Source of the DNA: Streptomyces sp. 11x1
GTDB taxonomy: Bacteria; Actinomycetota; Actinomycetes; Streptomycetales; Streptomycetaceae
Assembly (NCBI RefSeq): GCF_032598905.1
Contig: NZ_CP122458.1
Span: 1,674,001 to 1,738,000 of the forward strand
Direction: 5' to 3'
DNA length: 64,000 nucleotides
Below are positions 18,907 through 54,279 of this stretch, piece by piece. Below the pieces are notes generated by a model, which searched no databases, was not told the DNA's origin, and was given only the letters and a program-made list of their open reading frames with translations. Positions within the stretch are counted from its first letter, which is position 1. Each line of letters starts with the position of its first letter. The position numbers and the translations under genes are program-made.

Positions 18907-19992
18907 TCACCCACGCAACAACACACCCGACCCCACTTGCGCCATCAAGGGCGGTTCCACATCCCCTTCGTACGCGAGATGGAGTTCGCTGCGCGCACGT
19001 GTGGCAAGCACGTAGTAGGTCATGCGCAGCGCGGCCGACGTGGGATCGGCTGCCGAGTCGGCGTGCGTGTCGGGGATGACCACCGTGTCGAACCCCAGCC
19101 CTTTGGCGCTCCTGCGGTGGACGAGCACGATGCCGGGACGGCCGAGGTCCAGCGTGCGGTAACGGCCGTCCCTCGCATCGGAGGTGTACAGCTGCGGTTT
19201 GAGCCGCGGTGCTCTGTGCTTCAGGGTGCCGAGCAACGAGAACTGGGTGTGCTTCGAGTGGACGATGACGCCGATGCTCCGTCCCGGATGCCTTTCCGCC
19301 AGCAGGACCAGCAGGTCGGCGGCGCCTCGTTCGGGCAGGTGATGAAGTCTCGGCGGGGGTCCCTGCCGGTCGGGAAGCGGAGGCGAACCGGCTCCCGTGT
19401 GGAAGTGGGCCGCGAAAGACGCGATCTGGTACGTATTGCGATGGTTGCCATCGATCTGGTACCGGTCGCACCGGCCGAGGCGCCCGGCGATCTCGGCGAG
19501 TGTGGAGTTCGTGTCGGCCAACCGCTGGCACTCGTCCGCGTACACCGTCATCCGTGCTCCCAGGAGTCGGCACAGGCGGTAGAACTCGGGCGGCAGGTCC
19601 TGGCCCTCGTCCACGACCAGGGTGAGTCCCGGGACCGGCCCGCTCTCCACGGCTCGTTCGAAGAGTGCGGGCCAGTCGAACCATCCGTCGTCGCTCTTCG
19701 GGGGCGTGCCGCCGTACCACTCGGCGAGCCATGTGTGCGCGGTCCTCACGCGCACGCTTCGGTCCGCCGGGCCCAGCGTGTGCACGGCCCCGGCCAGTGA
19801 CTGGCGGAGGAGATTCGAGTAGGTCAGCAGCACCGTCGGGGTGCCGGTGAGGGCGAGCATGACGGCCCGTTGGACCGCCAGGAGACTCTTGCCGCTGCCG
19901 GGCGGGCCACTGATCAGGTGATGACCGTCGAAGGGCAGTCCGTCGAGGCTGGAGCGCTGCTCCGTGGTGAGGTCGAGGTAGGTGAGTGTCAT
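18907..19992 (-). CDS. UvrD-like SF1 NTPase/helicase, last gene of the DISARM-like operon
   Basis: A 361-residue P-loop protein: Walker A GPPGSGKS (29-36), Walker B VVDEGQD (126-132), a GNHRNT motif resembling helicase motif IV/V, and a C-terminal ATRARSELHLAYEGD like UvrD motif VI (normally TRAxxxL). It is about half the length of UvrD and lacks the 1B/2B insertions, similar to DUF2075/UvrD_C_2 NTPases. The ATG overlaps the drmB stop by 4 bp (TCAT), so it is co-translated with drmA and drmB. Standard DISARM carries a phospholipase D protein (drmC) at this point; none is seen, so this NTPase may be a substitute component. Confidence 0.8.
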   Translation of the reverse strand: MTLTYLDLTTEQRSSLDGLPFDGHHLISGPPGSGKSLLAVQRAVMLALTGTPTVLLTYSNLLRQSLAGAVHTLGPADRSVRVRTAHTWLAEWYGGTPPKSDDGWFDWPALFERAVESGPVPGLTLVVDEGQDLPPEFYRLCRLLGARMTVYADECQRLADTNSTLAEIAGRLGRCDRYQIDGNHRNTYQIASFAAHFHTGAGSPPLPDRQGPPPRLHHLPERGAADLLVLLAERHPGRSIGVIVHSKHTQFSLLGTLKHRAPRLKPQLYTSDARDGRYRTLDLGRPGIVLVHRRSAKGLGFDTVVIPDTHADSAADPTSAALRMTYYVLATRARSELHLAYEGDVEPPLMAQVGSGVLLRG

Positions 19993-21836
19993 GTCTTCTC
20001 CAGGGCGTCGGCGGCTGCGGAACGGGCAGCGGCGACGATGGACTCCAGGTAGCCCGGCACGTGTTCGCCGCCGACGACGAGGGCACGGTCGAGGAGGGTG
20101 TTGCCGGTCTCACAGCTGGTCTCGGGCAGCAGGGCACAGGCGTGGCAGGCCGCCCGGTTGAGGTTGCCGAATCCCTGGCCAGTGTGTTCGGCGCACAGTG
20201 GGTCGGCCGAGCACCACGCGGCGGCCTCCGTCATCCGCAGCAGCGTCTCGACCAGGCGCGGGGGCTCGCCCTGCCGTACGAGTCCGCCCAGGGTTCCCTC
20301 GGCGTCGCCGGCGGCCGTGTACACGAGAATGCCGTACTGGTCCTGTTCGGGACGGGCGTAGATCCTCTCCCGGAGACTCGCCGTCGTGTATCCGGATTCG
20401 AAGGAAAGCTGACGGATCAGCAGGTGCGCGAGGGTGTGCAGCAGCACGAACCGCGGTGAGAGGTCCGGCCCCGTCACGGCTTCGAGACGGTCCTTCTGGA
20501 AGGAGCGGTCGAGGTCGGCCTGCATGCCGGCCACCTGTCGGCGCACCCTCGTGTCGACCTCCCAGGAGGCGAGTTCCCCCCGGTCGAGGGTGAGGAAGAC
20601 GCCCTCGCCGAAGACCTCCACGGCCGGCAGCCATTTCAGGCGCCGCGCGCTGTCGGCGGGCACGACGGAGGCGTCCGGGGAGACCCGGGTGAAGCCGGAT
20701 AGCGCGCGTACCTCGCGCAGCCGGTCGGCGAGAACGATCCGGCCGAAGCGTTGACGCAGGCCGGACCAGGGCTCCGCACTCTCACCGGCGAGGCCGAGCG
20801 TCGTCTCACGCAGCGCGAAGTCGCGGGTGGCGGGCGGGGCGGGGGCCGTGAAGGCGGCCCATTCCTCGCGGCTCAGGTCAGGCCGGGCCGGACCGTCCGA
20901 CGAGGCTGGAGCAGCCCCGGAAACGCCACCCGTCTCCTCGGCGACGAGGGCGTCCAGGAGGTCGTCACCGGCCCCGGTGTCCTCCTGGATCATCATGCGC
21001 AGCGCCTCGGCACGCGGTGTCCCGGCCATGCGACACAGGGAGACCCACAGATCGTGCTCACGTACCCGCGCGGCAAGGGCGTCGTCGGTGTGTGCCGGTA
21101 CGTCCGTCTCGGGGATGTCGAGCGCCGAGTGCACGAGCGGGTAGTACAGGTTGCCCGCCGTGCGCTGCACGATCTGCACCGGTTTCACGCACTCGGCGGC
21201 CTCGCTCGCCCGCTGCCAGGGGTTCCGCCCCGAACAGCGCATGCCGTGGGTACCGAGAATGTCGAGCAGATCGCGCGCCGCACCGCACCCCTTCGCGGCG
21301 CACGCCACGGAGAGTGCCTCGAGACCCGAGGCACGTTCGGAGACGAGGAAGCGGAGCCTGTCCCGCTCTGCGCACTGCCGCCGTTCGGCGGCCTCGCGCC
21401 GTGAGTGGGCCCAGAACCACCAGTCGATGTCGCTGAGGTGTCCGGCCGCGCAGATCTGCACGAACCGCATGGGCGCGAGCGTCCGGGCCGGTGAGCAGGA
21501 CGGGCAGCGCGGCGCCTGCCCGTGCTTCTCGTCGGCGATGCGCCAGCGCTTCATACGCCGGCAGGCTCCGCAGAACAGCCAGGACGGGAAGCGGATGTAC
21601 GGCGCGCCGGGCGCGTCCGGGGTGTCGAACCGGTCGTTGGCCGTCGCGGGGGCGGCGTAGAACCCGGTGACCCCCAGCCTGGAGGCGAGCCTGGGCGAGT
21701 CGACCTTCTGCCTGCCCCGTGTCGGCCAGTCACCGATCCCTGTGGCGACGAACGACTCGCCCTGGATGTCGAAGACGGCTCCGACGCCGAAGGGCACCAC
21801 CGTCTGCGACTGACGTACCCGAAGTGTGCGGCTCAC
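19989..21836 (-). CDS. drmB: DrmB-like DUF1998 protein (DISARM core)
   Basis: A 615-residue protein of the DUF1998 DISARM family, starting at a GTG (21836) that overlaps the drmA TGA and has GGGAG 7 nt upstream. The N-terminus SRTLRVRQSQTVVPFGVGAVFDI is the typical DrmB opening. Cys clusters follow: LFCGACRRM with CPSCS, then CAAGHLSDIDWWFWAH and AAKGC. The C-terminus holds LHTLAHLLIRQLSFESGY, YTAAGDAEGTLGGL and a final CHACALLPETSCE metal-binding cluster. In DISARM, DrmA and DrmB together recognise and block incoming phage DNA. Motifs fit well; the identification is by recall of the family, not a search. Confidence 0.85.
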   Translation of the reverse strand: MSRTLRVRQSQTVVPFGVGAVFDIQGESFVATGIGDWPTRGRQKVDSPRLASRLGVTGFYAAPATANDRFDTPDAPGAPYIRFPSWLFCGACRRMKRWRIADEKHGQAPRCPSCSPARTLAPMRFVQICAAGHLSDIDWWFWAHSRREAAERRQCAERDRLRFLVSERASGLEALSVACAAKGCGAARDLLDILGTHGMRCSGRNPWQRASEAAECVKPVQIVQRTAGNLYYPLVHSALDIPETDVPAHTDDALAARVREHDLWVSLCRMAGTPRAEALRMMIQEDTGAGDDLLDALVAEETGGVSGAAPASSDGPARPDLSREEWAAFTAPAPPATRDFALRETTLGLAGESAEPWSGLRQRFGRIVLADRLREVRALSGFTRVSPDASVVPADSARRLKWLPAVEVFGEGVFLTLDRGELASWEVDTRVRRQVAGMQADLDRSFQKDRLEAVTGPDLSPRFVLLHTLAHLLIRQLSFESGYTTASLRERIYARPEQDQYGILVYTAAGDAEGTLGGLVRQGEPPRLVETLLRMTEAAAWCSADPLCAEHTGQGFGNLNRAACHACALLPETSCETGNTLLDRALVVGGEHVPGYLESIVAAARSAAADALEKT

Positions 21837-24800
21837 AGGTCGGCTCCCTTCACCGTCACCTGGCATTCCCGGTCCACGTTGCGCATGGAGTTCGGTGTCT
21901 CCCACAGGCCGTAGTTCTGCTCGAAGCTCTTGATCAGGTTGGACTGCCCCTTGCCCTGGCTGCGGTAGTACAGTTCCCGGCCGTCCTTGCGGGCCTGGCG
22001 GGCCGCGTCCTCCCAGTCGGCGAGGAGTGAGGACAGCTCCTTCTGCACCTCGCCGCCCACCCCCGGCTCGCGCGCATCGGCTCGCGCCGCCAGTTCCGCG
22101 ACCAGCCTCCCCATTTCAGGCAGTCGGTCGATCACCTGCCCCGCCTGGTTCTCTGCGGCCATTCCCAGCCGGTGCCGTACGAGGATGACGAGCGCGGCGT
22201 GCAGGGCGCGACGACGCGACGGCACCGACCAGGGGGTGACGCTGGTCGGCTCGACGTGCCGGTACAGGGAGCGGTGGTACACGTCGAAGGTCTCGTAGTG
22301 CGAACGGTCCCGTGGGCGGGTGGCGTTGAAGAAGGTCACGACGAGGCCGGGCACCGTGTGCCGGCCGACACGGCTGGTGGCCTGGATGTACTCGGCGGTC
22401 GTCTTGGGCTGGCCCTGCATCAGCATCAGCGCGAGCCTCTTCACGTCGACGCCGACGGACAGCATGTTGGTACAGGGCAGGAAGGACACCGACTGCGGGT
22501 CGTCCCAGGGCTTCTCCAGCCGGTCGAGCAGGACGGGCTGCTCCGCGCGCGGCAGGTTGCTGGTGAGTTCCTGCACCTGGTGGTCCAGCAAGCGACGTGT
22601 CCCAGCCCCGGAGTCGAGTCCCGCGATCTGAGCGGGGATGTCATCGGCGGCGGCGGTGACGGTACGACCGAGTTCGCGCAGGCTGTGGTGGTAGGCGACG
22701 AGCGTCCAGTACGCGTCCCGGTGCTCCTCGGGCAGTTCCCAGGCGCCCTGCAGCATGGCGGCCGCCGTGGCCACGGCGGCGCGACCGGCCGTGTGGCCCT
22801 GGGCCATGACACCGAGGTAGCGTCGCCCCGGGCGGGAGGTGTCGGGCTCGGCGAAGTACGAGTGCCGGGCGTCGAGCCCGGCCGGCGGGAAGAGCTGGGC
22901 GGCACCGCCGTACAGGGCCTGGATCTGCTCACCGGAGCGACGGATGGTGGCCGTCGACGCCACGACCTTCGGCCCTGTCCCGTCGGGTGAGGTGCACAGC
23001 CCCAGCACAGCCGACTCGTACAGCCCGACGGTGGTACCGAGAGGACCGGTGAGCAGGTGCAGCTCGTCCTGGATGACGAGCGACGGCGGAAGGTTGGAGG
23101 TGCCCGCGCCGAACAGCCGTCCCGCACGCGGCTCCCACGCCAGACGGGCGAACTTGTCGACGGTGCCGAGCACGAAGGTCGGCGGCTGGTCGTAGAGGTG
23201 CTCGTCGACGACGGCGACGGGCAGCTCGTCGTGGAAGGCGCACGCGTCACGCGGACAGAAGAAGGCGAACGAGTCCGCTGAGGCTCGCACGCCGTAGTCC
23301 CCGATGTCGGGCGACTTGTGGGCGGGAAGGATGCGGGTTCCGCACCAGGGGCAGCGGTCGAGGATGAAGACGTCGTCGGGCCGGGTGGCGGCGCGGACGT
23401 CGTCGAAGGCCGCCCGTGCCTTTTCGTACGTGTTCGGTGACGTGGCCTCGCCCACCCACAGGCCGATCGAGAAGGGCTCCTCGCCATAGGTGTCCGGGTC
23501 GGCGCGACGGAAGGTCTCCAGGGCACAGACGGTGGTGGCCGCGCGCTGGAACTGCTGGGTGGTGAGGAGGCTCAGGGTGTAGCGGCTGAGGACCGCGGTA
23601 CCCCGGCCGTCGGGATCACCCCGCCGGAGCACCATGGCGAAGGCGGCGAGCAACAGATACGCCTCCGTCTTGCCACCACCGGTCGGGAACCAGATCAGAT
23701 CCGTGGTGGCCCGGTCCGGGTGTCGCGGGTCAGCCACACCGTCCAGAGCGAGCAGGAAGAACGCCAGCTGGAAGGGCCGCCACGTGGCCTGCGGATCCGG
23801 TTCGGGGTCGAGGAGCATGGGGGTCTGGCGGGAGCGGCGTTCTCCCGCCTGGTCGCGTGCCGAGTGGCGCATCTGCAGGGCCATGGCACGGTTCGCGGCC
23901 CGGAAGGCGCGCAGTAGTTCGGGGCGGCTCGGGTCGCACAGTGTGCGTACGCCCGATTCGATCCTGGTGACGGCGGCACCGATGCGGCCGAGGACCCGAT
24001 CGGCGGCCTCGCGGCCCCAGGCGGGGATGTCCGCGGTCAGCTGTCCCACGTACCAGGCCCGGTAGTCGGCCGCGAACTCACCGAGCTCTTCCCGTAGTTG
24101 TTCGAGAGACACCTCGGGGTCGGCGAGGTGCCGGAGGTCGAGCACCGGGGACCCGCTCAGACCCGCCGCACGGACACCACTGACCTCGGCCTCCGGCATG
24201 ACCGCGGCCTTGAGCCCGGTCACCCGGTCCCCTGCGCCGTCGTACTGCTCCTCGACGGCGCAGCCGTGGCCGACTGCGTGGGTCCTGACATGCCGGTACT
24301 GAAGGCGCAGTTCCTGCTCCTCCGGGTCACGGCTGGCCAGGCGGACACTCGGGTACTGGAGGACCTCGCCGTCCAGCGGCCGTGCCTCCAGGCCTACTTG
24401 GAAGAGCATGCGGTCCCATTGGGCGGTCTTGCCGAGGGTCGGTTCATGACGGGCCGCGTTGACGAGAGCCACGGTGACCAGGTGGCCGACGCCGAAGTGA
24501 CGGCGTCGAACGCGTAGTTCGGCCCTGCCGTCGAGGACTTCGATGTGGTCGCGGTCGGGGCCGAGAGCATGGTGCTCGGCCGGCAGCGCCACGCGTTCCC
24601 AGCGCCTGCCGCGTTCACCCGTGGCGGAGTGGGTCACGTAGCGGGCGCCCGCGCAGCGGACCTCGACGGTGGCGGCGTCGGTGTAGAAGCTGAAGCCGAG
24701 GGAGGAGGGAAGCCATGCGTTGGACTCGGGGATCGGGTCGCTCGCCGGGGCGGTGTCCTCGGCCGCGCGTTCCGTACCGGCCCCTTCCGGGTCCTCCGCG

Positions 24801-24958
24801 GCGAGATGCAGTTGGCGCTGTAGGTCGGCCTCTTGGGGATAGAGGGTGCCCATCAGATACTGCCGGTCGGGCGGAGCGTCGAGCATCTCGTGCTCTCCCC
24901 CGGCCGGGCCGACGAGCTGGCGGTGGAGATAGGCGACGAGTTCGTGTCTGGGATCCAT
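21833..24958 (-). CDS. drmA: DrmA-like helicase (DISARM core)
   Basis: A 1041-residue SF2-type helicase. Walker A WFPTGGGKTEAYL (423-435), a Zn-binding insertion CPWCG (536) with CPRDAC, DELH box (631-634), STAT motif III (about 668), VGVDVKRL, and motif VI QATSRVGRH (859-867). The N-terminal 400 residues match the long non-helicase part of DISARM DrmA. The ATG at 24958 has GAGGA 6 nt upstream, 47 nt after the sigma-factor stop. Its stop overlaps drmB. It is the motor of the predicted defence complex; no methyltransferase or PLD gene accompanies it directly, unlike class 1 or class 2 DISARM. Confidence 0.87.
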   Translation of the reverse strand: MDPRHELVAYLHRQLVGPAGGEHEMLDAPPDRQYLMGTLYPQEADLQRQLHLAAEDPEGAGTERAAEDTAPASDPIPESNAWLPSSLGFSFYTDAATVEVRCAGARYVTHSATGERGRRWERVALPAEHHALGPDRDHIEVLDGRAELRVRRRHFGVGHLVTVALVNAARHEPTLGKTAQWDRMLFQVGLEARPLDGEVLQYPSVRLASRDPEEQELRLQYRHVRTHAVGHGCAVEEQYDGAGDRVTGLKAAVMPEAEVSGVRAAGLSGSPVLDLRHLADPEVSLEQLREELGEFAADYRAWYVGQLTADIPAWGREAADRVLGRIGAAVTRIESGVRTLCDPSRPELLRAFRAANRAMALQMRHSARDQAGERRSRQTPMLLDPEPDPQATWRPFQLAFFLLALDGVADPRHPDRATTDLIWFPTGGGKTEAYLLLAAFAMVLRRGDPDGRGTAVLSRYTLSLLTTQQFQRAATTVCALETFRRADPDTYGEEPFSIGLWVGEATSPNTYEKARAAFDDVRAATRPDDVFILDRCPWCGTRILPAHKSPDIGDYGVRASADSFAFFCPRDACAFHDELPVAVVDEHLYDQPPTFVLGTVDKFARLAWEPRAGRLFGAGTSNLPPSLVIQDELHLLTGPLGTTVGLYESAVLGLCTSPDGTGPKVVASTATIRRSGEQIQALYGGAAQLFPPAGLDARHSYFAEPDTSRPGRRYLGVMAQGHTAGRAAVATAAAMLQGAWELPEEHRDAYWTLVAYHHSLRELGRTVTAAADDIPAQIAGLDSGAGTRRLLDHQVQELTSNLPRAEQPVLLDRLEKPWDDPQSVSFLPCTNMLSVGVDVKRLALMLMQGQPKTTAEYIQATSRVGRHTVPGLVVTFFNATRPRDRSHYETFDVYHRSLYRHVEPTSVTPWSVPSRRRALHAALVILVRHRLGMAAENQAGQVIDRLPEMGRLVAELAARADAREPGVGGEVQKELSSLLADWEDAARQARKDGRELYYRSQGKGQSNLIKSFEQNYGLWETPNSMRNVDRECQVTVKGADL

Positions 24959-25005: not shown

Positions 25006-28000
25006 TCAGGACCGGCGCCAGCGGCCCCTGAACGATGTGCGGCCGTCGCCGTCTCCGCGCGCGGCGGCGAGCTGTTCCTGGAGCTCGGTGATGCGGGCCC
25101 AGGCATCGTGTTCGGTCTGGGCGGTGTGCTGCGCTGCCCGCTGCTCGGCTTCCTCCACCTGAGCCTGCGCCTGCTGCCGGGCAGCGATGAGGGCGTGGTC
25201 CCGCTCGATCAACTGGGCCTCGACTCGCCCCAGCCGCTCTTCGAGGTCCTCGATACGCGCTTCGGCTTCCTCGCGCTGCCGTCGCAGCCGCTGGTCGCCC
25301 TCGAACACCTGTTGCTCCGCGCGTGAGGCACGCCGGACGGCTTCCACGGCCCGCCGCTCGGCCTCGACCGCCCGTTGTTCCGCCTGCGTGGCACGCAGAC
25401 GAGCCATGGTCAGTTGCTGCTCGTCGCGGGGAGAGCTTTGGGCGTCGGACCGTGCCGCTTCCGCGGCGTGCCCCGCCCGCTCGGCCATGGTGCGCTGTGC
25501 CTCGCGGTGCTCCTCCCTCAGGCGGGCGAGTCTGTCCTCCGCCTGCCTCTTCAAGCAGCGCTCCTGACGGAGCAGTGCTTTGTCCACGCGATGCAGTAGC
25601 ACTTCTTCCAACGCTTCGAGTTGCCGCTCGGTGTCCGCCTCGGCAGCGGCGACCCGGGCGTCTGCGGCCTGCTGTTCCTCGGTGAGACGCAGCTCGTGTT
25701 CGCGGTGTACGCGGGCCAGCCGAGACTCGTGTTCGCGGCGCTCCTCATCAAGGCACTGTTCGGATTCGGCACGCAACCGCGCGAGCTGCTCCTCCGCAGT
25801 GACTCTGTGCTCGGCCAGCCTTTCGTCAGCCTCCGCCCGGAGCACGGCGAGCTGCCGCCCGACGTCTGCACCCGCCGCGACGGGCTGCTGCCTCGTCTTC
25901 TCGCGCCCGGGGCCGAGCCGCTGTTCCCGCCCATGGGACGCCTCCTGATCGCGCTCGACGTCCGCCGGGGCCGAGACGTGGTGCTGCTCAGGCTCACCGT
26001 GGGCCGGGACGGGCTGCACCTCGGACTCCTCTCCGGTGGGCATCGCCGGCTGTCCGGCATCCGCGACGGGGAAGGCCCAATACTGCTCACCGGCTTTGGC
26101 GGGGGGCGTGGCCGGCCGCTCGGCGTCGTCGCGGGCGGGGCTGTGGTGCTGCTCGGACGTTCCGTAGACCGATACCGCAGGTTGCCCGTCCTCGCCGGGG
26201 GACGACGCCGACTCCTCGCCGGCCGCGTCTCGTCTCCCCGGCCCCCGGTCCGCGCGGTCCTCCGCGTCGTCGGGAGCACCGTCCGAGATATCCGAGGACG
26301 TCCCGTGAGCGGCGGCTTGAGCCACGGGCGACCCCGCGCCCCCTTCCCGGCTCGGCGCCTCGGCGACGAACTCCCGTAGCGCGTCACGCGTGGCAAGGCG
26401 CGACTCCGGCTTCACCAGGGGTCTCTTCGCCAGATACTCCCGTGGGGTCAGCCCGACCAGCGCCTCGGCCGGTCGTTCGAAGAAGTCCTCCGGGCGGAGC
26501 CCGGCCGGTTTCAACGTGTCGAAGACGCGCTGCAGGACTTCCAGGGCCGTGAGCACCTGGCGGTCCGGCATCGTGCGCTCCCGCGCGGCACGCACCACGT
26601 CCGCGGCGGCCGCGGACCCGAGCACGACCACCAGTTGGGCATGTCCGAGCGCCAGCAGGGCGTACTCGGCCAGCCAGTCGATTCCTCCGTGGAACTCCGC
26701 CGACATGCGCTGGGCCTTCTCCCAGTCCGCCGTGTACTGCACCTGCTGCGCACCGGCGACCGGAGCGGTAAGTGGGGCGTCGGGGCCACCATCGAGCGCG
26801 TTCTCCCCGGTGTGCTGCTCGGTCTCCTCCACCGCTGCCGCCTCCCCATCGGTCCGCGTCGACAACTCCTCGGCCGGTACCGGCTCCGGCACCACCTCGG
26901 GCAACGGCTCCGTCCGCGCGACCCGGCTGTCGCGCGCACCACCGACCGGCGCGACAGCCGCTTGCGCCCTGGCGCGGACTCGCCTCAGCGGGATCTGTTT
27001 CCTGGCGCCCTCGTCCTCGCCCTCCTCGGGCCCGTGGCCACTGAGCAACCCGGCCGCCCGCAGTCTGAGCCGGAACTCCGGGCGGGCTTTGTTCTCCAGC
27101 TGCCGGATGCGTTCGCGGGTCACCCCGAACTCCCGCCCGAGTTCGTCGAGCGTCGAGGGCTCGTCACCGTCGAGGCCCAAGCGGCGGACCAGGATGCGGG
27201 CGCTTCGTTCGGAGAAGGTGTCGACCACCGCCATGACGTCTTCCATCAGGAGCGCGTGCACCACGTCGTTCTCCACCGACGGCAGCGCCTGGCTCTCTCC
27301 GACGAAGTCGCCGAGGGTGGCCCCGTCACCGATGACACGGTCGAGCGAGTCGGTGCGGCGGGTCAACTTCCGGATTTCCTCCACCTTGTCCACGGCCATG
27401 TCGCACCGGACCGCGACATCGACGACCCCCGCGGGCCTCCCCTGCGCGGCCAGCGCGCGTTCCGCGGCCGCCACCTTGCGCATCTGCTCGTGCATGTGGA
27501 CGGGGACCCGGATGAGGGCTCCCTCGTCGGCGATCGCACGGGACACCGACTGACGGACCCACCAGGTCGCATAGGTCGAGAACTTGTAGCCCTTCGCCGG
27601 GTCGAACTTGCGGGCGGCCCGCATCAACCCCAGCACGCCGTGCTGGACCAGATCCTCGTACTCCAGCCCTTGCTCCAGATAGGAACGGATCAGCGAGTGA
27701 ACCAGGCGCTGGTTGTGCAGGACGAGGCAGTCCCGTGCCCTGACTCTGATGTCGTCGGACGGCAGCCCGCTCAGCTCCTCGTCCTGGGGCTCCTGGTCGA
27801 CGTGTTCCGCACCGCCCCGCAGCAGAACGGCGAGGCCGACCTCCGCCTCGGCCTTCAGAAGCCGGTCTCCCGGGCGTCGGCAGAAGCGGTCTTCCTGCAG
27901 GACGGCCATCGCCGCGGCCACGGCCGCATCACTGTTGCCGCCGACAGCCGCAGGTTCCGGCTCCCCGGCAGACGACGGATCGTCCTCATCGCCCGCCCCC

Positions 28001-28497
28001 GGTTTACCCAGAGCCCCCGGATCCCCCGGATCCCCCGGTTCCTCCGTCTCATCGGACACGGCTTCGGCGTCCCGGACCTTCGCCCCGGCCCGCAGCGCCG
28101 CCCTGCCCCTCTCACCGAGTCCGGCCAGTCGCGCCACTCCGTCCACAGCCCGGGAGGTCACGAATCCGTCGGGGTCCGCGTAGCGCAGGAGGAGCGCTCG
28201 CACCACATCAGCCCCGGGGAACACATTTTCCCCACGGAATGGTGCAACCTTTTCCATATCCGGGCTGTCCGCGTCATTGTGTACATGCGCTTCCCGGACG
28301 GGCAGCCCCAACCGGGCCAGTTCGCCCCGCAGCCGTTCCCGCTCGGCACCACCGAGCCCCAAGGCCTGCACATGCTCCACGAAGGCGGACTCCGGCACCG
28401 CACCGTTCACAGCGGCGCTCCGAAGCTGCGCGAGCAGAACCCCCAGCGCGGCCCTCAACCCAGGCGCTTCCGCGCCGGCGACGGATTGGTGTCTCAT
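25006..28497 (-). CDS. Sigma-70 factor fused to a long C-terminal coiled coil
   Basis: A 1163-residue protein with an unusual architecture. Residues 250-325 are sigma region 2 (EYEDLVQHGVLGLMRAARKF, GYKFSTYATWWVRQSVSRAI, the -10-binding part). About 330-405 are region 3. About 415-475 are region 4 with the -35-binding HTH (LDELGREFGVTRERIRQLE). A charged linker and a roughly 100-residue helical domain (590-695, TADWEKAQRM to YLAKRPL) follow. After a Pro-rich stretch, residues about 875-1145 form a near-continuous coiled coil (heptads rich in Arg/Glu/Ala). Typical group 1/2 sigma factors end shortly after region 4. It is the first gene of the drmA-drmB operon. It may direct island transcription or sense takeover of RNA polymerase by phage (inference). 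Start chosen at ATG 28497. Confidence 0.9.
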   Translation of the reverse strand: MRHQSVAGAEAPGLRAALGVLLAQLRSAAVNGAVPESAFVEHVQALGLGGAERERLRGELARLGLPVREAHVHNDADSPDMEKVAPFRGENVFPGADVVRALLLRYADPDGFVTSRAVDGVARLAGLGERGRAALRAGAKVRDAEAVSDETEEPGDPGDPGALGKPGAGDEDDPSSAGEPEPAAVGGNSDAAVAAAMAVLQEDRFCRRPGDRLLKAEAEVGLAVLLRGGAEHVDQEPQDEELSGLPSDDIRVRARDCLVLHNQRLVHSLIRSYLEQGLEYEDLVQHGVLGLMRAARKFDPAKGYKFSTYATWWVRQSVSRAIADEGALIRVPVHMHEQMRKVAAAERALAAQGRPAGVVDVAVRCDMAVDKVEEIRKLTRRTDSLDRVIGDGATLGDFVGESQALPSVENDVVHALLMEDVMAVVDTFSERSARILVRRLGLDGDEPSTLDELGREFGVTRERIRQLENKARPEFRLRLRAAGLLSGHGPEEGEDEGARKQIPLRRVRARAQAAVAPVGGARDSRVARTEPLPEVVPEPVPAEELSTRTDGEAAAVEETEQHTGENALDGGPDAPLTAPVAGAQQVQYTADWEKAQRMSAEFHGGIDWLAEYALLALGHAQLVVVLGSAAAADVVRAARERTMPDRQVLTALEVLQRVFDTLKPAGLRPEDFFERPAEALVGLTPREYLAKRPLVKPESRLATRDALREFVAEAPSREGGAGSPVAQAAAHGTSSDISDGAPDDAEDRADRGPGRRDAAGEESASSPGEDGQPAVSVYGTSEQHHSPARDDAERPATPPAKAGEQYWAFPVADAGQPAMPTGEESEVQPVPAHGEPEQHHVSAPADVERDQEASHGREQRLGPGREKTRQQPVAAGADVGRQLAVLRAEADERLAEHRVTAEEQLARLRAESEQCLDEERREHESRLARVHREHELRLTEEQQAADARVAAAEADTERQLEALEEVLLHRVDKALLRQERCLKRQAEDRLARLREEHREAQRTMAERAGHAAEAARSDAQSSPRDEQQLTMARLRATQAEQRAVEAERRAVEAVRRASRAEQQVFEGDQRLRRQREEAEARIEDLEERLGRVEAQLIERDHALIAARQQAQAQVEEAEQRAAQHTAQTEHDAWARITELQEQLAAARGDGDGRTSFRGRWRRS

Positions 28498-28715
28498 CAC
28501 GGCTACCCCCAACCGATCTCACCGACGACATTAGACGCGGCGCGTTGACGACGTCAACAGATTGAACACCTATCGGAAATTCTCACGATCGTGTACGGTA
28601 GCGGCGGTCGCGGTGCCCCCTCTGTCACGATGGGCGGTGGCGCAGGCAGGTCAGGGGGACGCATTCCGTTACGGAACAGCGAGAACCCGTGGAAACAGGG
28701 GCAGAGGAGCGGGGC
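28498..28715. promoter_or_regulatory. Divergent promoter of the sigma/DISARM operon and the kinase-helicase gene
   Basis: 218 nt shared by both units. On the minus strand, TTGACG is followed after 18 nt by TAATGT, a credible sigma-HrdB-type promoter for the sigma/drm operon; its -35 lies inside the 15-bp palindrome at 28544-28558. Toward the kinase gene a TACGGT (-10-like) occurs near 28596 and GAGGAG precedes the GTG at 28716. Confidence 0.6.
28544..28558. promoter_or_regulatory. Palindromic operator GTTGACGACGTCAAC (copy 1)
   Basis: Seven-bp perfect arms around one central base, overlapping the predicted -35 of the sigma/drm operon. The same sequence apart from the central base recurs at 54265-54279 upstream of the HTH-methylase gene. 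Such a site would bind a dimeric regulator. Confidence 0.7.
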
Positions 28716-33324
<4,609 letters not shown>

Positions 33325-33353
<29 letters not shown>

Positions 33354-38260: not shown

Positions 38261-38524
38261 GCCCACAGGCTAACGGCGCAGACGCGGCAACGGGCTTCCA
38301 AGCGCCGACCGCTGGGGCACGGAGCCTCGCCCGCCCTCCGGCAAGACCGTCTGGGCGGAGTTCGGCCGGCGCGGCGAGGAGCCAAAGGCAGTTTCCGGTC
38401 AATCCGGCAGCCAATGCCGCTGAGGACGGCCAAACGCTTTGAGTGACGGCATCCGGTCGACCTACGCTCCGTCAACGGATCACGGCGTCCCCGGCCGCGC
38501 CACTACTCAACAGGAGTGTGTCCC

Positions 38525-43913: not shown

Positions 43914-44110
43914 TCCGACTAACGACTCCTGGGCAACGTCAGCAACAGCGCCGAACGCGCACGGAGTTGCCGGTGCGGCTCCCCTCACCGAGGTGAAACG
44001 CCGCGAGTCCCGACGTGATGGACCTCCCTTCCCGCGCAGCACGCAGACCCAAGTGCTCACACGTTCGAGATACGTACACAGATTCGAACCTTTGGAGCCG
44101 CGTGAATATG

Positions 44111-44140
44111 TTGACACTGCTAACGCAATCTTGCCATGCT
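44111..44140 (+). promoter_or_regulatory. Promoter of the SbcC-like ATPase operon
   Basis: Consensus -35 TTGACA (44111-44116), 18-nt spacer, CATGCT (44135-44140) as a TAnnnT-like -10. Transcription would start near 44147, 66 nt before the ATPase ATG. Confidence 0.55.
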
Positions 44141-47280: not shown

Positions 47281-49107
47281 ATGTCCGTGGCCGAGTCCGC
47301 GACGTATCCGGAGTTTCAGCTGCGTCTACCCAATGGCGACGGCATCGGCCGGGCACGCGGTGCGCTGCTGGACGAGACGGGAACGAACGGAAGCCGGAGG
47401 TTCCTGATCCGGGCCGGCTCTCCGGCCCGGGATCATGTGATGCCGTCACTCGCCACCCACTTCAAGGCCCCGTTCAAGCACCGGGAGGACCTGAGGGCCC
47501 GGGGTGTACTCGTGCCCTCGACCCGGTGGCCCGGCTGGTTGGAGCTGACCGAGGACGTGGTCGTCGGTTCGCCGTCGTTCGCCGCCGTCCTCCTGGTCGG
47601 CGCCCCGCGCAACGGGTGGAAGGAATGGCGGACGGAGGACGGCGCGCCGTTGTCCGACTTCATGGCGGCGGTGTGGCACGGCCCGAACCGTCCCTGGCTG
47701 GTACGCGGGTCGAACGTGACCGGACTGGACCTGGTCCAGAGGATGTGGCTCCCTGAAGGCCGCGTCACGCTGGCCGCCTCCCGCCTTCGGCAGGGAGTCG
47801 GGCAAGGCGTCAGCAAGGACGAGCTGCGGACCCTGGTCCAGGAGGACTACGAGTCCACCGCCACCTACAGCCAGAAGCAGCAGCTCGTCGAGGACCTGCA
47901 CGCCTTCCTCTCCCGCATGAAACCCGGAGACACCGTGTGCACCATCTCCGGCGGCCGGCTGTACGCGGGGGAGATCGCGGGCGAGGCGGAACAGATCGCG
48001 TCGGACGACGGACGAACCAACCTGCGGCGACCGGTCGAGTGGGAGACGACCGGGTACCCGTACGACAACCTGCCGGAAGAGCTTCAGCAGAAGCTGTCCG
48101 TCCAGCACGATGTCGTCGACCTCACCTCCGTACAGGCACATATCGAAGGACTGGGCCGGTCCGACCAGGAGCTGGTCGAGGAGGCGGAAGCCATAGAGCG
48201 GGACCCCAGCGTGGAGATTCCCGCGCTCACCGCCCGCCGCGAGCTGGAGCTGCCCGAGCCGACGGACGAACTGACCGACGAACTCCTCGTGCACGACACC
48301 GAGTGGCTGCGCGAGGTGCGAGACCTGCTGTGGGACGAGCGGCAGTTGGTGCTGTACGGGCCGCCGGGCACCGGCAAGACGTACCTGGCGCTGAAGCTCG
48401 CCGAGTTCCTCGGCAGCGGGCCCGAGCAGGTCAAGCTCGTGCAGTTCCACCCGTCGTACGCCTACGAGGACTTCTTCGAGGGCTTCCGGCCCCAGGAGGA
48501 CCCGCAGACCAGAGAGGTCGCCTTCCGGCTCACCGCGGGCCCGCTGCGCGAACTCGCCGACCTCGCCTCCCGTGAGGGCAACCGGCACATCCCGCACTTC
48601 CTGATCATCGACGAGATCAACCGGGCCAACCTGGCGAAGGTCTTCGGCGAGCTGTACTTCCTGCTGGAGTACCGCAACAAGTCGGTACGGCTGACGTACT
48701 CCGGCGACGACTTCGCACTGCCGCCGAACCTGTTCGTGATCGGGACGATGAACACCGCCGACCGCTCGATCGCCCTCGTGGACGCGGCGATGCGTCGCCG
48801 GTTCGCGTTTGTGGAGCTGTCGCCGCGTACAGAGCCCACGAGCGGTCTGCTGCGCCGCTGGCTGGCCAAGGAGGGCAAGGACACCGAGCCGGCCGACCTG
48901 CTCGACGCACTCAACTCCCGTATCGGCGAAGCCGACTTCCGCATAGGGCCGTCGTACCTGATGAAGAAGGGCGTCTACCGGGAGGGCGGCCTGGAGCGGA
49001 CCTGGCGGACGAAGATCCTTCCACTGCTGGAGGAGCACCACTACGGGGAGGGTATGGACATCGAGAAGCGGTACGGGCTGACCGCGCTGCGGGAGTCACT
49101 CGGGTGA
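47281..49107 (+). CDS. DUF4357-McrB fusion AAA+ GTPase
   Basis: A 608-residue protein. Residues about 38-118 match DUF4357 (FLIRAGSPARDHVMPSL, VGSPSFAAVLLVGAPRNGWK), a small domain often fused to nucleases and restriction proteins. About 200-260 form a PUA-like reader (MKPGDTVCTISGGRLYAGEI). The McrB core follows: Walker A GPPGTGKT (360-367), FHPSYAYEDFFEGF, LIIDEIN (441-447), MNTADRS (490-496) and RRRFAF. The ATG at 47281 is chosen; GTG at 47278 and 47287 are alternatives. Its stop overlaps the mcrC-like start, giving a second, independent McrBC pair in the island. Confidence 0.88.
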   Translation: MSVAESATYPEFQLRLPNGDGIGRARGALLDETGTNGSRRFLIRAGSPARDHVMPSLATHFKAPFKHREDLRARGVLVPSTRWPGWLELTEDVVVGSPSFAAVLLVGAPRNGWKEWRTEDGAPLSDFMAAVWHGPNRPWLVRGSNVTGLDLVQRMWLPEGRVTLAASRLRQGVGQGVSKDELRTLVQEDYESTATYSQKQQLVEDLHAFLSRMKPGDTVCTISGGRLYAGEIAGEAEQIASDDGRTNLRRPVEWETTGYPYDNLPEELQQKLSVQHDVVDLTSVQAHIEGLGRSDQELVEEAEAIERDPSVEIPALTARRELELPEPTDELTDELLVHDTEWLREVRDLLWDERQLVLYGPPGTGKTYLALKLAEFLGSGPEQVKLVQFHPSYAYEDFFEGFRPQEDPQTREVAFRLTAGPLRELADLASREGNRHIPHFLIIDEINRANLAKVFGELYFLLEYRNKSVRLTYSGDDFALPPNLFVIGTMNTADRSIALVDAAMRRRFAFVELSPRTEPTSGLLRRWLAKEGKDTEPADLLDALNSRIGEADFRIGPSYLMKKGVYREGGLERTWRTKILPLLEEHHYGEGMDIEKRYGLTALRESLG

Positions 49108-50360
49108 GGTCGGCCGCGGAAACCGTGAACCCTGTCGAGCCCGTGGCGCCGGTAGAGCTGGTGGAGCACGCGCCGGCCGTCCGCCGCGCCCTTCCCGAGC
49201 CCGTCGGCCGCGCGCTCGCGGCCGCCGACATCGTGGAGGCGACCCCCGACCCGTACGCACCGGGGCACTGGTCACTGCGGGCGGGCAGCAAGGTAGGGGC
49301 GGTGGCCGTGACGGTACCGGGCGGCGGCGAGCCGGTCACCGTGCGTGTCACACCCAAGGTGCCCATCGGCCGCCTCTTCTTCCTGCTCGGCTACAGCCTT
49401 GATCCCAAGGGGAGTTGGCGGGACGGGGAGGTCGAGGTCGCCGAGCACCGTGATCTGGTGCCCGCGCTCGCCCACGCGGTGGAGCGGCAGGTGGACCGGG
49501 CGCTGCGGCAAGGGCTGCTGCAGGGGTACAAGGCGACGGAGGAGAGCGCTCTCGTCGTACGCGGACGGCTCCGGGAAGCCGAGCAGATACGGCGTCGCTT
49601 CGGGGCGGCACTTCCGGTGGAGGTGGCGTACGACGAGTTCACCACCGACATCGCGGAGAACCGCATCCTGCGTACGGCCGTCGAGCGTCTCCTCCGGCTG
49701 TCCGGTGTACCGCGCGACGTGCGCCGCAGGCTGTCGCACCAGCGCGCCCGCCTGGCCAACGTGACCGCGATCGTGCGCGGGCAGCCGATCCCCGACTGGC
49801 TCCCCACCCGCCTCAACGCCCGGTACCACCACGCCCTGCGCCTCGCCCGCGCGGTCCTGGACGGCACCTCCGCCGAGCACACGCCCGGTGGGCTGCGCAT
49901 CGACGGCTTCCTGTTCGACATGAACAAGCTCTTCGAGGACTTCGTGACGGTGGCCCTGCGGGAGGCCTTCCGAACCACCGGCTCGGGTCACACCGCCCGG
50001 TTCCAGGACCCGCACCACCTCGACAAGGCCGCCGCGATCCGGATGAAGCCGGACTTCGTGCTGTACGGGCCGGACGGCGGAACCCCGTGCGCCGTCGTCG
50101 ACGCCAAGTACAAGGCGGAGAAGCGGAGTGGCTACCCGGACGCCGACCTGTACCAGATGCTGGCGTACTGCACGGCTCTCGGCCTGCGCGAAGGACACCT
50201 GCTGTACGCGAAGGGCAACGCCGCGCACGCCGCCCATGAAGTGCGCCACGCGGGCATCCTCATCCACCAGCACGCCCTCGACCTGGACCAGGAACCGGCA
50301 GGGCTCCTCACGGACATCGAAAGGATCGCCCTCCGGCTGGTGAACACACCGCGCGTATGA
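49104..50360 (+). CDS. McrC-like nuclease subunit (second copy)
   Basis: A 418-residue McrC-family protein starting at GTG 49104 in a GTGA overlap. The N-terminal half includes VRVTPKVPIGRLFFLLGY. The C-terminal nuclease shows IRMKPDFVLYGPDGGTPCAV followed by VVDAKYKAEKR and LYQMLAYC, the complete PD...DAK...Q pattern. It differs clearly from the McrC at 42496 and pairs with the DUF4357-McrB just upstream. Confidence 0.88.
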   Translation: MRSAAETVNPVEPVAPVELVEHAPAVRRALPEPVGRALAAADIVEATPDPYAPGHWSLRAGSKVGAVAVTVPGGGEPVTVRVTPKVPIGRLFFLLGYSLDPKGSWRDGEVEVAEHRDLVPALAHAVERQVDRALRQGLLQGYKATEESALVVRGRLREAEQIRRRFGAALPVEVAYDEFTTDIAENRILRTAVERLLRLSGVPRDVRRRLSHQRARLANVTAIVRGQPIPDWLPTRLNARYHHALRLARAVLDGTSAEHTPGGLRIDGFLFDMNKLFEDFVTVALREAFRTTGSGHTARFQDPHHLDKAAAIRMKPDFVLYGPDGGTPCAVVDAKYKAEKRSGYPDADLYQMLAYCTALGLREGHLLYAKGNAAHAAHEVRHAGILIHQHALDLDQEPAGLLTDIERIALRLVNTPRV

Positions 50361-50400
50361 TCGACTGCGGAGTGTCCGTCCAGGGTGGGGAGTTCACCTC

Positions 50401-52536
50401 GTGCCGCAGCTCGCGTTCGCCAACAGCTTCTGGGAGAGCTACGACGTCCTGGAGAAGCCCGTCAGGGCCGGCGTGCGCAAGGCGATGCAGAAGTTCCAGC
50501 AGCTCACCGTGCCCGAACTGCATGCGGACAAGGGGCTGCACCTGGAGTCCGTGGAGAACGCCCGCGACCCGCGCATGCGGACGATCCGCATCAACGACTT
50601 CTGGCGGGGCGTGGTCCTCGCACCGAACGACGGCAGCGATGTGTTCCTGCTCGTCAACGTCGTCCGCCACGACGACGCGTACACGTGGGCGGCCAAGCGG
50701 CTGTACACGACGAACTCCGCGACACGGGCGCTCGAAGTCCGCAACGTCGTGGCCATCGAGCAGCTGACCCCGGCCCTGGAGAAGGCGGCGGTCGCCGCAC
50801 CCTCGCTGCTGTTCGCGAAGTACTCCGACACCGTGCTGCGTGAACTCGGCATCGACGACCAGGTCCTGAGGGCCGTGCGGACCATCGTCGACAAGCCGCA
50901 ACTGGAGGCGTTCGGCACACTGCTGCCCGAGGACCAGTTCGAGGTGCTCCAGTACCTCGCGGAGGGGTTCAGCGCGGAGGACGTGTACCGGGACGTGGTC
51001 GCCGTGCGGCGGCCGGTCGACGCGGGCCCCGACCCGGACGAGAGCCTGGCCATCGTCATCGCCAACACGTCGAGCCGGATCAGGCTCGTCACCGGCCCGG
51101 AGGAACTCGCCGACATCCTGGAGAAGCCGTTCGCGGCCTGGCGGGTCTTCCTGCACCCCTCGCAGCGCCGGGTCGCCTATCGGGTGTCGTACGGCGGGCC
51201 GGTCCAGGTCACGGGCGGCCCGGGCACCGGCAAGACGGTCGCGGCCCTGCACCGGGTCAAGCACCTTCTCACCCGCTCTCCCGGCACTCGCCTCCTGCTG
51301 ACCACGTACACGAACGCGCTGGCCTCCTCCCTGCGCGAGAACCTGTCCCTGCTCCTCGACGGCGACGAGTCGCTGCTCGGCCGAGTGGACGTGACCACGG
51401 TCAACGCCTACGCGCACGGCGTCGTGACCCGCCTCGACGGCAGATCCCCCTCCCCCATCGGTGACCGAGAGGAACGGCAGTTGTGGGAGCGCGTCGTCAA
51501 GAAGCTCGGACTGCCATGGACGGAGCAGTTCCTGGCTCAGGAGTACCGGCACGTCGTACTCGCCCAGGATCTGCGCACCCTGGACGCGTACAGGGCCGCC
51601 GTACGACGCGGTCGTGGCAGCGCGCTGTCGGCGGCCCGACGCGAACAGCTGTGGCCCGCCGTCGAGTTGTTCGAGGAGCTGCTGCGTGTCCAGAAGGCCA
51701 CCACGTATCTGAAGGTGTGTGCCCGTGCGGCCGATCTGCTCGCCGACTCGGCTCCCACGCACGACCACGTCGTGGTCGACGAGGCTCAGGACCTGCACCC
51801 CACCCAGTGGCGTGTCCTGCGTGGTGCGGTGGCGTCCGGCAGTGACGACCTGTTCATCACGGGCGACCCGCACCAACGGATCTACGACTCGAAGGTCTCG
51901 CTCGGTTCGCTGGGCATCTCGGTGACAGGACGCACCCATCGCCTGCGCATCAACTACCGCAGCACGGAGGAGATCCTCGCCTGGTCGACCGGCATCCTCA
52001 GCCCGGTGAACGTCGACGATCTGGGCGGCGCGGGCAGCGACAGCCTCGCCGGCTACCGCTCGCTGCTGCACGGCCGAAGGCCGCACGTGGACGGCTACGG
52101 ATCCGAACAGGCAGAGGTCGCCGCGCTCGTCGGGAGGATCGAGGAATGGATCGCCCAGGGCATCCGGCCCTCGGAGATCGGGGTGTGCGCCCGCTTCAAT
52201 GTGCTGCTCGACAAGGTCCACGACAAGCTGGCCGCGGCCGAGGTGCCCGTGGTCCGGGTCAGGGACAACCCGGGTCCGGGTGTGGACGGGGTACGGCTCG
52301 CCACCATGCACGCCATGAAGGGCCTGGAGTTCCGCTGTGTCGCCGTACTCGGGGCATCGGCGAGCGCGGTTCCGTTCGCGCGCGAGGTGACGCCCGCCTC
52401 CGTGGACGCGTTGCAGCACGACTCCGATCTGCTGCGGGAGCGGTGCCTGCTGTTCGTGGCGTGCACGCGAGCCCGCGAGGCGCTGTCGGTGTCATGGAGC
52501 GGGATCGCCAGTCCGTTCGTACCTCAGCCGAACTGA
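50401..52536 (+). CDS. RelE-like domain fused to a UvrD-type SF1 helicase
   Basis: A 711-residue protein from GTG 50401 (GGGGAG upstream), 40 nt after the McrC-like stop. Residues 1 to about 120 resemble a RelE/YoeB-type fold (FANSFWESYDVLEKPVRAGV to VNVVRHDDAYTWA). The helicase follows: Walker A GGPGTGKT (272-279), TTYTNALASSL (motif Ia), VVDEAQDLHPTQW (457-469), TGDPHQRIYD, the LRINYRSTEEI stretch (motif IV), TMHAMKGLEFRCVAVLG (V) and VACTRAREAL (VI). All ATPase motifs are intact. It could be part of the upstream McrBC module as an accessory motor, or a stand-alone defence gene; the RelE-like part may bind rather than cut RNA. Confidence 0.82.
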   Translation: MPQLAFANSFWESYDVLEKPVRAGVRKAMQKFQQLTVPELHADKGLHLESVENARDPRMRTIRINDFWRGVVLAPNDGSDVFLLVNVVRHDDAYTWAAKRLYTTNSATRALEVRNVVAIEQLTPALEKAAVAAPSLLFAKYSDTVLRELGIDDQVLRAVRTIVDKPQLEAFGTLLPEDQFEVLQYLAEGFSAEDVYRDVVAVRRPVDAGPDPDESLAIVIANTSSRIRLVTGPEELADILEKPFAAWRVFLHPSQRRVAYRVSYGGPVQVTGGPGTGKTVAALHRVKHLLTRSPGTRLLLTTYTNALASSLRENLSLLLDGDESLLGRVDVTTVNAYAHGVVTRLDGRSPSPIGDREERQLWERVVKKLGLPWTEQFLAQEYRHVVLAQDLRTLDAYRAAVRRGRGSALSAARREQLWPAVELFEELLRVQKATTYLKVCARAADLLADSAPTHDHVVVDEAQDLHPTQWRVLRGAVASGSDDLFITGDPHQRIYDSKVSLGSLGISVTGRTHRLRINYRSTEEILAWSTGILSPVNVDDLGGAGSDSLAGYRSLLHGRRPHVDGYGSEQAEVAALVGRIEEWIAQGIRPSEIGVCARFNVLLDKVHDKLAAAEVPVVRVRDNPGPGVDGVRLATMHAMKGLEFRCVAVLGASASAVPFAREVTPASVDALQHDSDLLRERCLLFVACTRAREALSVSWSGIASPFVPQPN

Positions 52537-54216: not shown

Positions 54217-54264
54217 ACCCGCCACCGTACACAGCGATCTCGACGGCCATCAACGACCAAGTTC

Positions 54265-54279
54265 GTTGACGCCGTCAAC
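54265..54279. promoter_or_regulatory. Palindromic operator GTTGACGCCGTCAAC (copy 2)
   Basis: Same 7-bp arms as the site at 28544-28558, differing only at the central base. It partly overlaps a second inverted repeat CAACGA...TCGTTG (54251-54268). Located just upstream of the methylase promoter. Confidence 0.7.

Follow-up and report, generated by a model that had tools for sequence, protein, structure and literature searches.

A dedicated sigma-70 factor accompanies one DISARM-like DrmA–DrmB branch in Actinomycetes

Why should an operon of DISARM-like defence genes begin with the gene for a sigma-70 factor? The question arises in Streptomyces sp. 11x1, in a stretch of 64,000 nucleotides analysed here as a whole (contig NZ_CP122458.1, positions 1,674,001 to 1,738,000; hereafter the window, in whose own numbering positions are given), where a sigma-70 family protein (SIG) is encoded ahead of drmA, drmB, and a small helicase gene, Hel4 (Table 1). 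Our comparison of loci shows that SIG is a dedicated sigma-70 factor of one DISARM-like DrmA–DrmB branch in Actinomycetes, inherited together with DrmA, DrmB, and Hel4. Judged from sequence comparison, the sigma factor is a real component of a DISARM-like subtype undescribed in the literature searched, and its retention through large evolutionary change suggests a defence machine that works with the transcription apparatus.

A sigma gene beside drmA and drmB

The sigma gene lies on the minus strand, where it forms an open frame of 1163 residues from an ATG at 28497 down to 25006; read on the plus strand, the same interval is interrupted by stops. The operon runs on the minus strand in the order sigma, drmA, drmB, and Hel4, with 47 nucleotides between the sigma stop and the drmA start (24958), drmB overlapping the end of drmA, and Hel4 overlapping the end of drmB. 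These coordinates confirm the spacing and gene order given in an earlier sequence-only reading of this DNA, to which the strand, Hel4, the divergent kinase-helicase gene, and relatives without the coiled coil and helical domain are new. The sigma start is backed by a conserved promoter, whose -10 element lies about 30 bp upstream of the ATG; on a plasmid of S. fungicidicus that carries the same four genes, the sigma copy is annotated from the equivalent start position. DrmA matched the PADLOC DrmA model (E 7e-205) and NCBIfam DrmAS with 888 bits, below the equivalog cut-off of 950, and DrmB scored 438 bits with NCBIfam NF038324, above the cut-off of 240. Hel4 (361 residues) gave weak UvrD-, GajB-, and HelD-like matches. 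The model libraries used see an incomplete DISARM plus a sigma factor below every specific cut-off.

We anchored the linkage test on DrmA, by tblastn identity, and not on the sigma factor. A sigma gene was found within about 3.2 kb of drmA in all 37 Actinomycetes loci with a DrmA at least 44% identical and usable flanks, as compared to none of the 43 examined loci with a DrmA at most 43.6% identical. The 37 linked loci comprise 26 of 26 from 199 Streptomyces genomes and 11 of 11 from 374 genomes of the class, the latter with DrmA at 44–71% in four families by tool code. The 43 unlinked loci comprise 33 from the genome searches and 10 plasmid loci, three of them annotated as DISARM. This low-identity sample was drawn from about 63 listed Streptomyces loci (25 examined), 20 listed class places (8 examined), and 85 plasmid records (10 loci examined). 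Two cases whose contig ends at drmA (L260 and G099) were excluded. Two contig-cut loci were counted, one (L199) whose contig starts inside SIG and holds residues 591–1163 only, with the sigma core outside the contig, and one (L200) in which SIG residues 398–707 are visible, so that the core is seen, whole or partly, in 36 of the 37.

Across the 199 Streptomyces genomes, DrmA gave matches in 79 and the middle helical domain of SIG in 11; those 11 are exactly the genomes whose DrmA reaches 78% identity or higher. The sigma gene also adjoins drmA, or is divergent to it, at DrmA identities of 64–71% (10 loci, L203–L212) and 55–57% (5 loci, L213–L217), and it is absent from five loci (L218–L222) whose DrmA falls below the latter group. 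The link outlasts rearrangement: the sigma gene may be co-directional before drmA, divergent from it, divergent with a NERD-helicase gene in between, or downstream. Ten Streptomyces loci in named genomes all carry sigma, drmA, drmB, and Hel4 in the order of the window; these and the S. fungicidicus plasmid are no test of the link, because they were found through the sigma factor or as near relatives. L005–L014 (found via the sigma factor) and L021 (picked as a near relative) are not among the 37.

In our sigma tree (78 rows), the 36 linked sigma factors, one from L005 and the others from 35 of the 37 loci, fall into a single clade whose Shimodaira–Hasegawa-like approximate likelihood ratio test (SH-aLRT) value is 100. 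The rows for comparison were HrdB, a further sigma factor of the genome, 20 sigma factors of the phylum, 3 from plasmids, and 17 from phage contigs. The sequence-only reading had tied the sigma gene to drmA and drmB; whether its homologues lie mostly elsewhere was examined, and the link held, both in the counts of loci and in the single sigma clade. The DrmA tree (81 rows) requires the sigma label to change twice (33 rows and 5 rows), and the starred branches force one of these changes; it comes with warnings about long branches and about its outgroup, which does not make up one side of a branch. Both are quick trees with SH-aLRT support only. For one linked sigma (L254), the score with HrdB (233 bits) slightly exceeded that with SIG (215 bits), the two queries being of unequal length. 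A phage origin of the linked sigma factors was considered and set aside, as the 17 phage-contig sigma factors (of 80 kept) fall outside the linked clade. Three plasmid sigma loci have no drmAB among their annotated neighbours.

Seven plasmid drmA–drmB pairs (L015–L020 and L022), from Deinococcus to Rhizobium, gave no sigma match, and six of the seven have UvrD, NERD, or AAA helicase genes adjoining on at least one side. These pairs are a wider set of DrmAB with superfamily 1 (SF1) helicases.

Table 1. Positions of the sigma operon, its promoter, the parts of SIG, and neighbouring genes in the window.
Feature	Position	Strand	Basis
SIG, sigma-70 family protein, 1163 aa, first operon gene	25006..28497	-	open frame, Pfam, relatives
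drmA, YprA-type helicase	21833..24958	-	PADLOC, NCBIfam
drmB, DUF1998/MZB protein	19989..21905, start uncertain (GTG 21905 or 21800)	-	Pfam MZB, NCBIfam DrmB_fam
Hel4, small SF1 helicase of UvrD/GajB kind, motifs I and II present	18907..19992	-	weak family matches
SIG N-terminal repeat 1, residues 12-62, helix-strand-helix-helix	28312..28464	-	AlphaFold2 (AF2) model
SIG putative N-terminal repeat 2, residues 96-142, element order as repeat 1	28072..28212	-	AF2 model
SIG sigma core, regions 1.2, 2, 3, 4, residues 195-484	27046..27915	-	Pfam, solved relatives, HrdB alignment
SIG QHG (residues 285-287) replacing QEG of region 2.2	27637..27645	-	HrdB alignment, linked sigma factors
SIG helical (middle) domain, residues 586-716	26350..26742	-	AF2 model
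SIG two long helices, coiled coil, residues 880-1147	25057..25860	-	AF2 model
-10 element TAATGT, 18 bp spacer	28528..28533	-	conserved upstream alignment
-35 element TTGACG of sigma operon	28552..28557	-	conserved upstream alignment
Dyad GTTGAC-N3-GTCAAC overlapping -35 element	28544..28558	.	exact-match genome search
GTGTAC toward divergent kinase-helicase gene, 32 bp from dyad	28591..28596	+	
Ser/Thr kinase fused to Druantia/ARMADA-like helicase	28689..33353	+	divergent from sigma operon
McrB-McrC-UvrD genes	47437..52536	+	homologues near sigma-drmAB in subclade B
N6-adenine methylase gene, N-terminal helix-turn-helix (HTH)-like stretch (weak HTH_23 match)	52564..54213	-	carries second dyad
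GTGTAC, 32 bp from second dyad	54227-54232	-	
Second exact dyad, upstream of methylase gene	54265..54279	.	

Parts and residues of the sigma protein

The complete sigma regions 2, 3, and 4 claimed in the sequence-only reading were verified by Pfam, with Sigma70_r2 at residues 258–325, r3 at 337–400, and r4 at 427–472, each above its curated cut-off. The match of the family profile to HrdB in a solved holoenzyme extends over residues 149–499 of that chain and so takes in region 1.2. In the AF2 model, two N-terminal units precede the core; 4llg_L aligns to the model from residue 16, and the first unit, for which a Pfam search gave no match, may correspond to sigma region 1.1. The helical domain and long coiled coil that had been described behind the core are borne out by AF2 models, the domain alone reaching a mean predicted local distance difference test (pLDDT) score of 92 and the long helices spanning 268 residues with a break near 1020. 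The fold of the helical domain may resemble chains of Xre/MbcA-type toxin–antitoxin complexes (Foldseek E-values 0.5 to 3.2). Sequence proof of an antitoxin fold was sought and none was found, the searches for such kinship giving no match; comparison with a viral fold library likewise yielded nothing at E 0.001.

By comparison of the subclades, the sigma core is common to most of the family, while the coiled coil and the helical domain are features of one subclade. The subclade B sigma that was read from end to end (L211) is 562 residues long, with N-terminal units and the sigma core and nothing after region 4. The window falls in subclade A, whose sigma factors have in addition the coiled coil and one or two copies of the helical domain; the helical domain had no match in the 26 linked loci of other subclades. 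Subclade C sigma factors add an HTH and about 650 further residues, and family f18 (L255–L259) has the sigma downstream, in one frame with Hel4, in all five loci. The Hel4 part of these fusions lacks ATPase motifs I and II and, because both are lost, is likelier to serve in binding than as a motor. Three proteins (P0130, P0145, and P0150) lack a sigma core but retain the N-terminal units together with two helical domains and the coiled coil, which suggests that the non-sigma parts may have a role of their own. The coiled coil, named in the title of the sequence-only reading, is not central: it is absent from the 562-residue sigma and kept in the three relatives that have no sigma core.

A stand-alone HTH protein homologous to the subclade C extension was observed 7–9 kb from drmA in 20 of 28 low-identity DrmA loci (L265, L266, and L269–L286).

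The linked sigma factors share one signature in the core. The glutamate of the QEG motif in region 2.2, which we take to be a polymerase contact, is gone in all 35 readable linked sigma factors (H in 33, Y in one, W in one), and among 120 listed subclade A relatives the position holds H in 105, V in 13, A in one, and N in one. The residues presumed to read the -35 element (R, E, R, R, and Q) are kept in every linked sigma except L203, and most of those presumed to read the -10 element are retained as well (first W in 32/35, Q in 34/35). The linked sigma clade without the QEG glutamate provides a sequence marker for this subtype in Actinomycetes.

Sigma factor function and the operon promoter

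The reading that we favour, while stopping short of calling it probable, is that the sigma factor is a working subunit, and more than a switch, that ties DrmA–DrmB–Hel4 to RNA polymerase or to the opened promoter DNA of a phage. The sigma core would hold RNA polymerase and promoter DNA, and the further parts of the protein (Hel4 where it is fused, the antitoxin-like domain and the coiled coil in subclade A) would hold the helicases, so that DrmA–DrmB–Hel4 would be brought to RNA polymerase or to opened DNA at incoming phage promoters. The loss of the QEG glutamate might make the linked sigma a weak competitor of the housekeeping sigma for as long as no infection disturbs the latter. Three points lead us to prefer such tethering to a switch of expression: the Hel4–sigma fusion with lost ATPase motifs, the absence of the operon promoter from some subclades, and the existence of relatives that have lost the sigma core and retain the remaining parts. 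The suggestion of the sequence-only reading that the sigma may bring the DrmAB machine to phage promoters gains from the Hel4–sigma fusions.

A more specific form of the tethering reading, which we regard as possible and on the doubtful side, is immunity coupled to transcription initiation, in which the sigma factor would be the targeting subunit that loads DrmA–DrmB–Hel4 at phage promoters opened by RNA polymerase. If this is true, a sigma factor, and not a nucleic-acid guide or a methylation mark, would pick the place of attack. To the question of how DISARM-type machines recognise phage DNA, the proposal offers an answer, namely that this one would be aimed via RNA polymerase.

Several observations weigh against tethering. 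The evidence for it is comparative throughout, and the f18 fusion could also serve regulation. SIG-like proteins such as P0130, P0145, and P0150 exist without a sigma core. The sigma frame breaks off within the core in the subclade B locus L203 and is split in L011, with drmAB still present in both, so the sigma may not be essential. One position presumed to read the -10 element (T of HrdB) is variable, with T in 21 of 36 linked rows, and the loss of the QEG glutamate may leave core binding unaffected.

The upstream region bears on the strongest rival. Between the sigma and kinase-helicase genes, a promoter of the form TTGAC(A/G), 17–18 bp, TAnnnT is conserved in 12 aligned loci, the window included. 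The 10.67 Mb genome contains two exact copies of the dyad that overlaps the -35 element of this promoter, both within the island (a reversed control gave zero), the second preceding the N6 methylase gene about 26 kb from the first. With a promoter-dyad site defined by at most two mismatches and a -10 element 9–11 bp after the dyad, such a site precedes the sigma gene in 20/20 subclade A loci and 10/10 subclade B loci, as compared to 1/33 unlinked (sigma-less) loci; 11 of the 20 subclade A loci in this count were found through or near the sigma factor. None of the 16 loci of other linked subclades has the site. The composite of the dyad and GTGTAC at 32 bp is present at 23 places in 19 of 199 Streptomyces genomes (reversed control zero). 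The kinase-helicase gene follows 14 of these places and methylase genes resembling the one in the window follow 4, while 2 adjoin the SMC-like gene and 3 lie elsewhere, the contexts being our own reading and the methylase contexts judged by eye.

These counts lend some support to an expression switch, which we consider unlikely, if less so than the readings that follow: the sigma factor would transcribe the defence operon to which it belongs, and possibly the divergent helicase operon as well, once a phage disturbs the housekeeping sigma or polymerase. The TTGAC-N18-TAnnnT promoter with its dyad has a form that such a sigma could read, it goes with subclades A and B and hardly with sigma-less loci, and the promoter-reading residues are mostly kept across six groups. 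However, TTGAC-N18-TAnnnT is also the known form of housekeeping promoters, none of the sixteen other sigma-carrying loci has the operon promoter, and a switch would leave the Hel4–sigma fusions with a dead helicase unexplained. Moreover, 13 of the 19 composite-site genomes have no match to the subclade A middle domain (two of these, G177 and G151, carry a subclade B sigma), and 11 have no DrmA of the sigma-linked kind. The suggestion of the sequence-only reading that the sigma drives transcription of the island is weakened on both counts, by the composite promoter in 13 genomes where no subclade A sigma was found and by the 16 linked loci where the operon promoter was not seen.

Several operons of the island seem to have a common regulator, which is not the subclade A sigma alone, because that sigma was not found in 13 of the 19 composite-site genomes. 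The middle domain was rejected as the reader of the dyad, as subclade B has dyad and promoter in 10/10 loci with no middle-domain match. The composite site was likewise rejected as a target of the subclade A sigma on the ground of the 13 genomes, with a query that is blind to sigma factors lacking the domain. The N6 methylase with its N-terminal HTH-like stretch is a candidate regulator acting at the dyad. A near match to the dyad with two mismatches lies at 44110-44124 (plus strand), about 100 bp before an SMC-like ATPase gene.

It is improbable, in our estimate, that the sigma is a decoy or sensor that mimics surfaces bound by phage anti-sigma or polymerase-takeover proteins, whose capture would trigger DrmA–DrmB. 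Such a role would suit a core like that of any ordinary sigma factor but for a changed polymerase contact, and attached parts that vary by subclade; a decoy, however, has no need of the DNA-reading residues for both promoter elements, which are largely kept over deep divergence, and no phage partner emerged from this analysis. We give no more credence to the sigma gene being a passenger, a regulator gene that travels with drmAB and takes no part in immunity, as the broken frames beside drmAB in L203 and L011 might indicate. Retention in 37/37 loci through several rearrangements, descent in one clade, and the repeated gain of new fused parts all speak against it. Least likely is an antitoxin-like switch, in which the subclade A middle domain would neutralise or sense a toxin with the sigma as output, given the weak Foldseek values with no sequence match, the absence of the domain from the searched loci of other subclades, and the lack of a RES toxin in a Pfam scan of 15 proteins of the window, the only place where one was searched for.

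Known defence systems and the rest of the island

DISARM combines DrmA, DrmB, and DrmC with a methylase and further genes, and its DrmAB is kept autoinhibited by a loop that 5'-overhang DNA dislodges, according to the accessible text of PMC9142583. The window shares with DISARM adjacent DrmA and DrmB homologues in the same order and differs in having its own sigma factor and the SF1 helicase Hel4. None of the 37 linked loci, the window included, matched two plasmid DrmC proteins at E 1e-5, and DrmC was not among the matches listed for the 15 window proteins. Two plasmid proteins of the MmeI-type methylase also found no match in the 37 loci. There is no methylase gene between sigma and Hel4; the N6 methylase gene that carries the same dyad lies about 24 kb off. 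Three plasmid DISARM loci have drmD, a methylase gene, drmA, and drmB, with drmC in two of them, and gave no sigma match.

The closest precedent is the mzaABCDE operon, in which a sigma-70 factor (MzaA) is likewise part of a defence operon, as presented in the accessible part of PMC9523054. In contrast to SIG, the sigma part of the MzaA model is C-terminal (473–710 of 726). MzaA is the best NCBIfam match of SIG, with 233 bits against a cut-off of 800. A special kinship of the two was rejected, as ordinary sigma factors of the phylum score higher with the MzaA model (about 360 bits). No protein in 396 genomes exceeded the cut-off of that model. DrmA, DrmB, and Hel4 had no match to MZA partner genes in PADLOC, and none was among the best 25 matches listed for two other window proteins. 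The sequence-only reading knew of no described system of this composition, which fits the literature searched; a sigma factor in a defence system does have a precedent in MzaA. We found no account of a sigma factor with drmAB in that literature, which was judged mainly from listings of papers, excludes most subscription papers, and includes the accessible text of PMC10542128 and PMC13118837. Sigma-like HTH domains are reported in BREX proteins in the available part of PMC12839542.

As compared to HrdB of Streptomyces, the linked sigma factors have the same regions 1.2–4 and nearly identical residues for reading the -10 and -35 elements, and differ in their separate clade, the lost QEG glutamate, and the extra domains.

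The gene divergent from the sigma operon recalls ARMADA, described in PMC12458937, whose main text uses the word 'sigma' twice, each time as the name of a supplier. Type I comprises a YprA helicase, a BrxHII-like helicase, and a PglX-like methylase. In 8 of 10 named relatives there is a divergent operon of a kinase-YprA helicase, an SNF2 helicase, and a presumed methylase, the last assigned by gene order only. Different are the kinase, which the main text of PMC12458937 does not mention, and the shortened window copy, which matches only residues 1–1404 of a relative's 2098. The SNF2 helicase and methylase genes that follow the kinase-helicase gene elsewhere had no match in the window. The ARMADA-like half of the island looks decayed in the window.

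Besides the N6 methylase, further genes of the island encode two McrBC pairs, an SMC-like ATPase, and a UvrD helicase. The accessible texts of PMC11090510 and PMC12458937 mention a DISARM-like cassette beside McrBC and name no sigma-70 factor there. In the same manner, McrB, McrC, and UvrD homologues lie near drmAB in 10/10 subclade B loci, and a homologue of the N6 methylase does so in 8/10. Elsewhere in the window, a protein encoded at 36899-38266 (minus strand) has an endonuclease VII-like stretch, and a homologue of it is present in L140.

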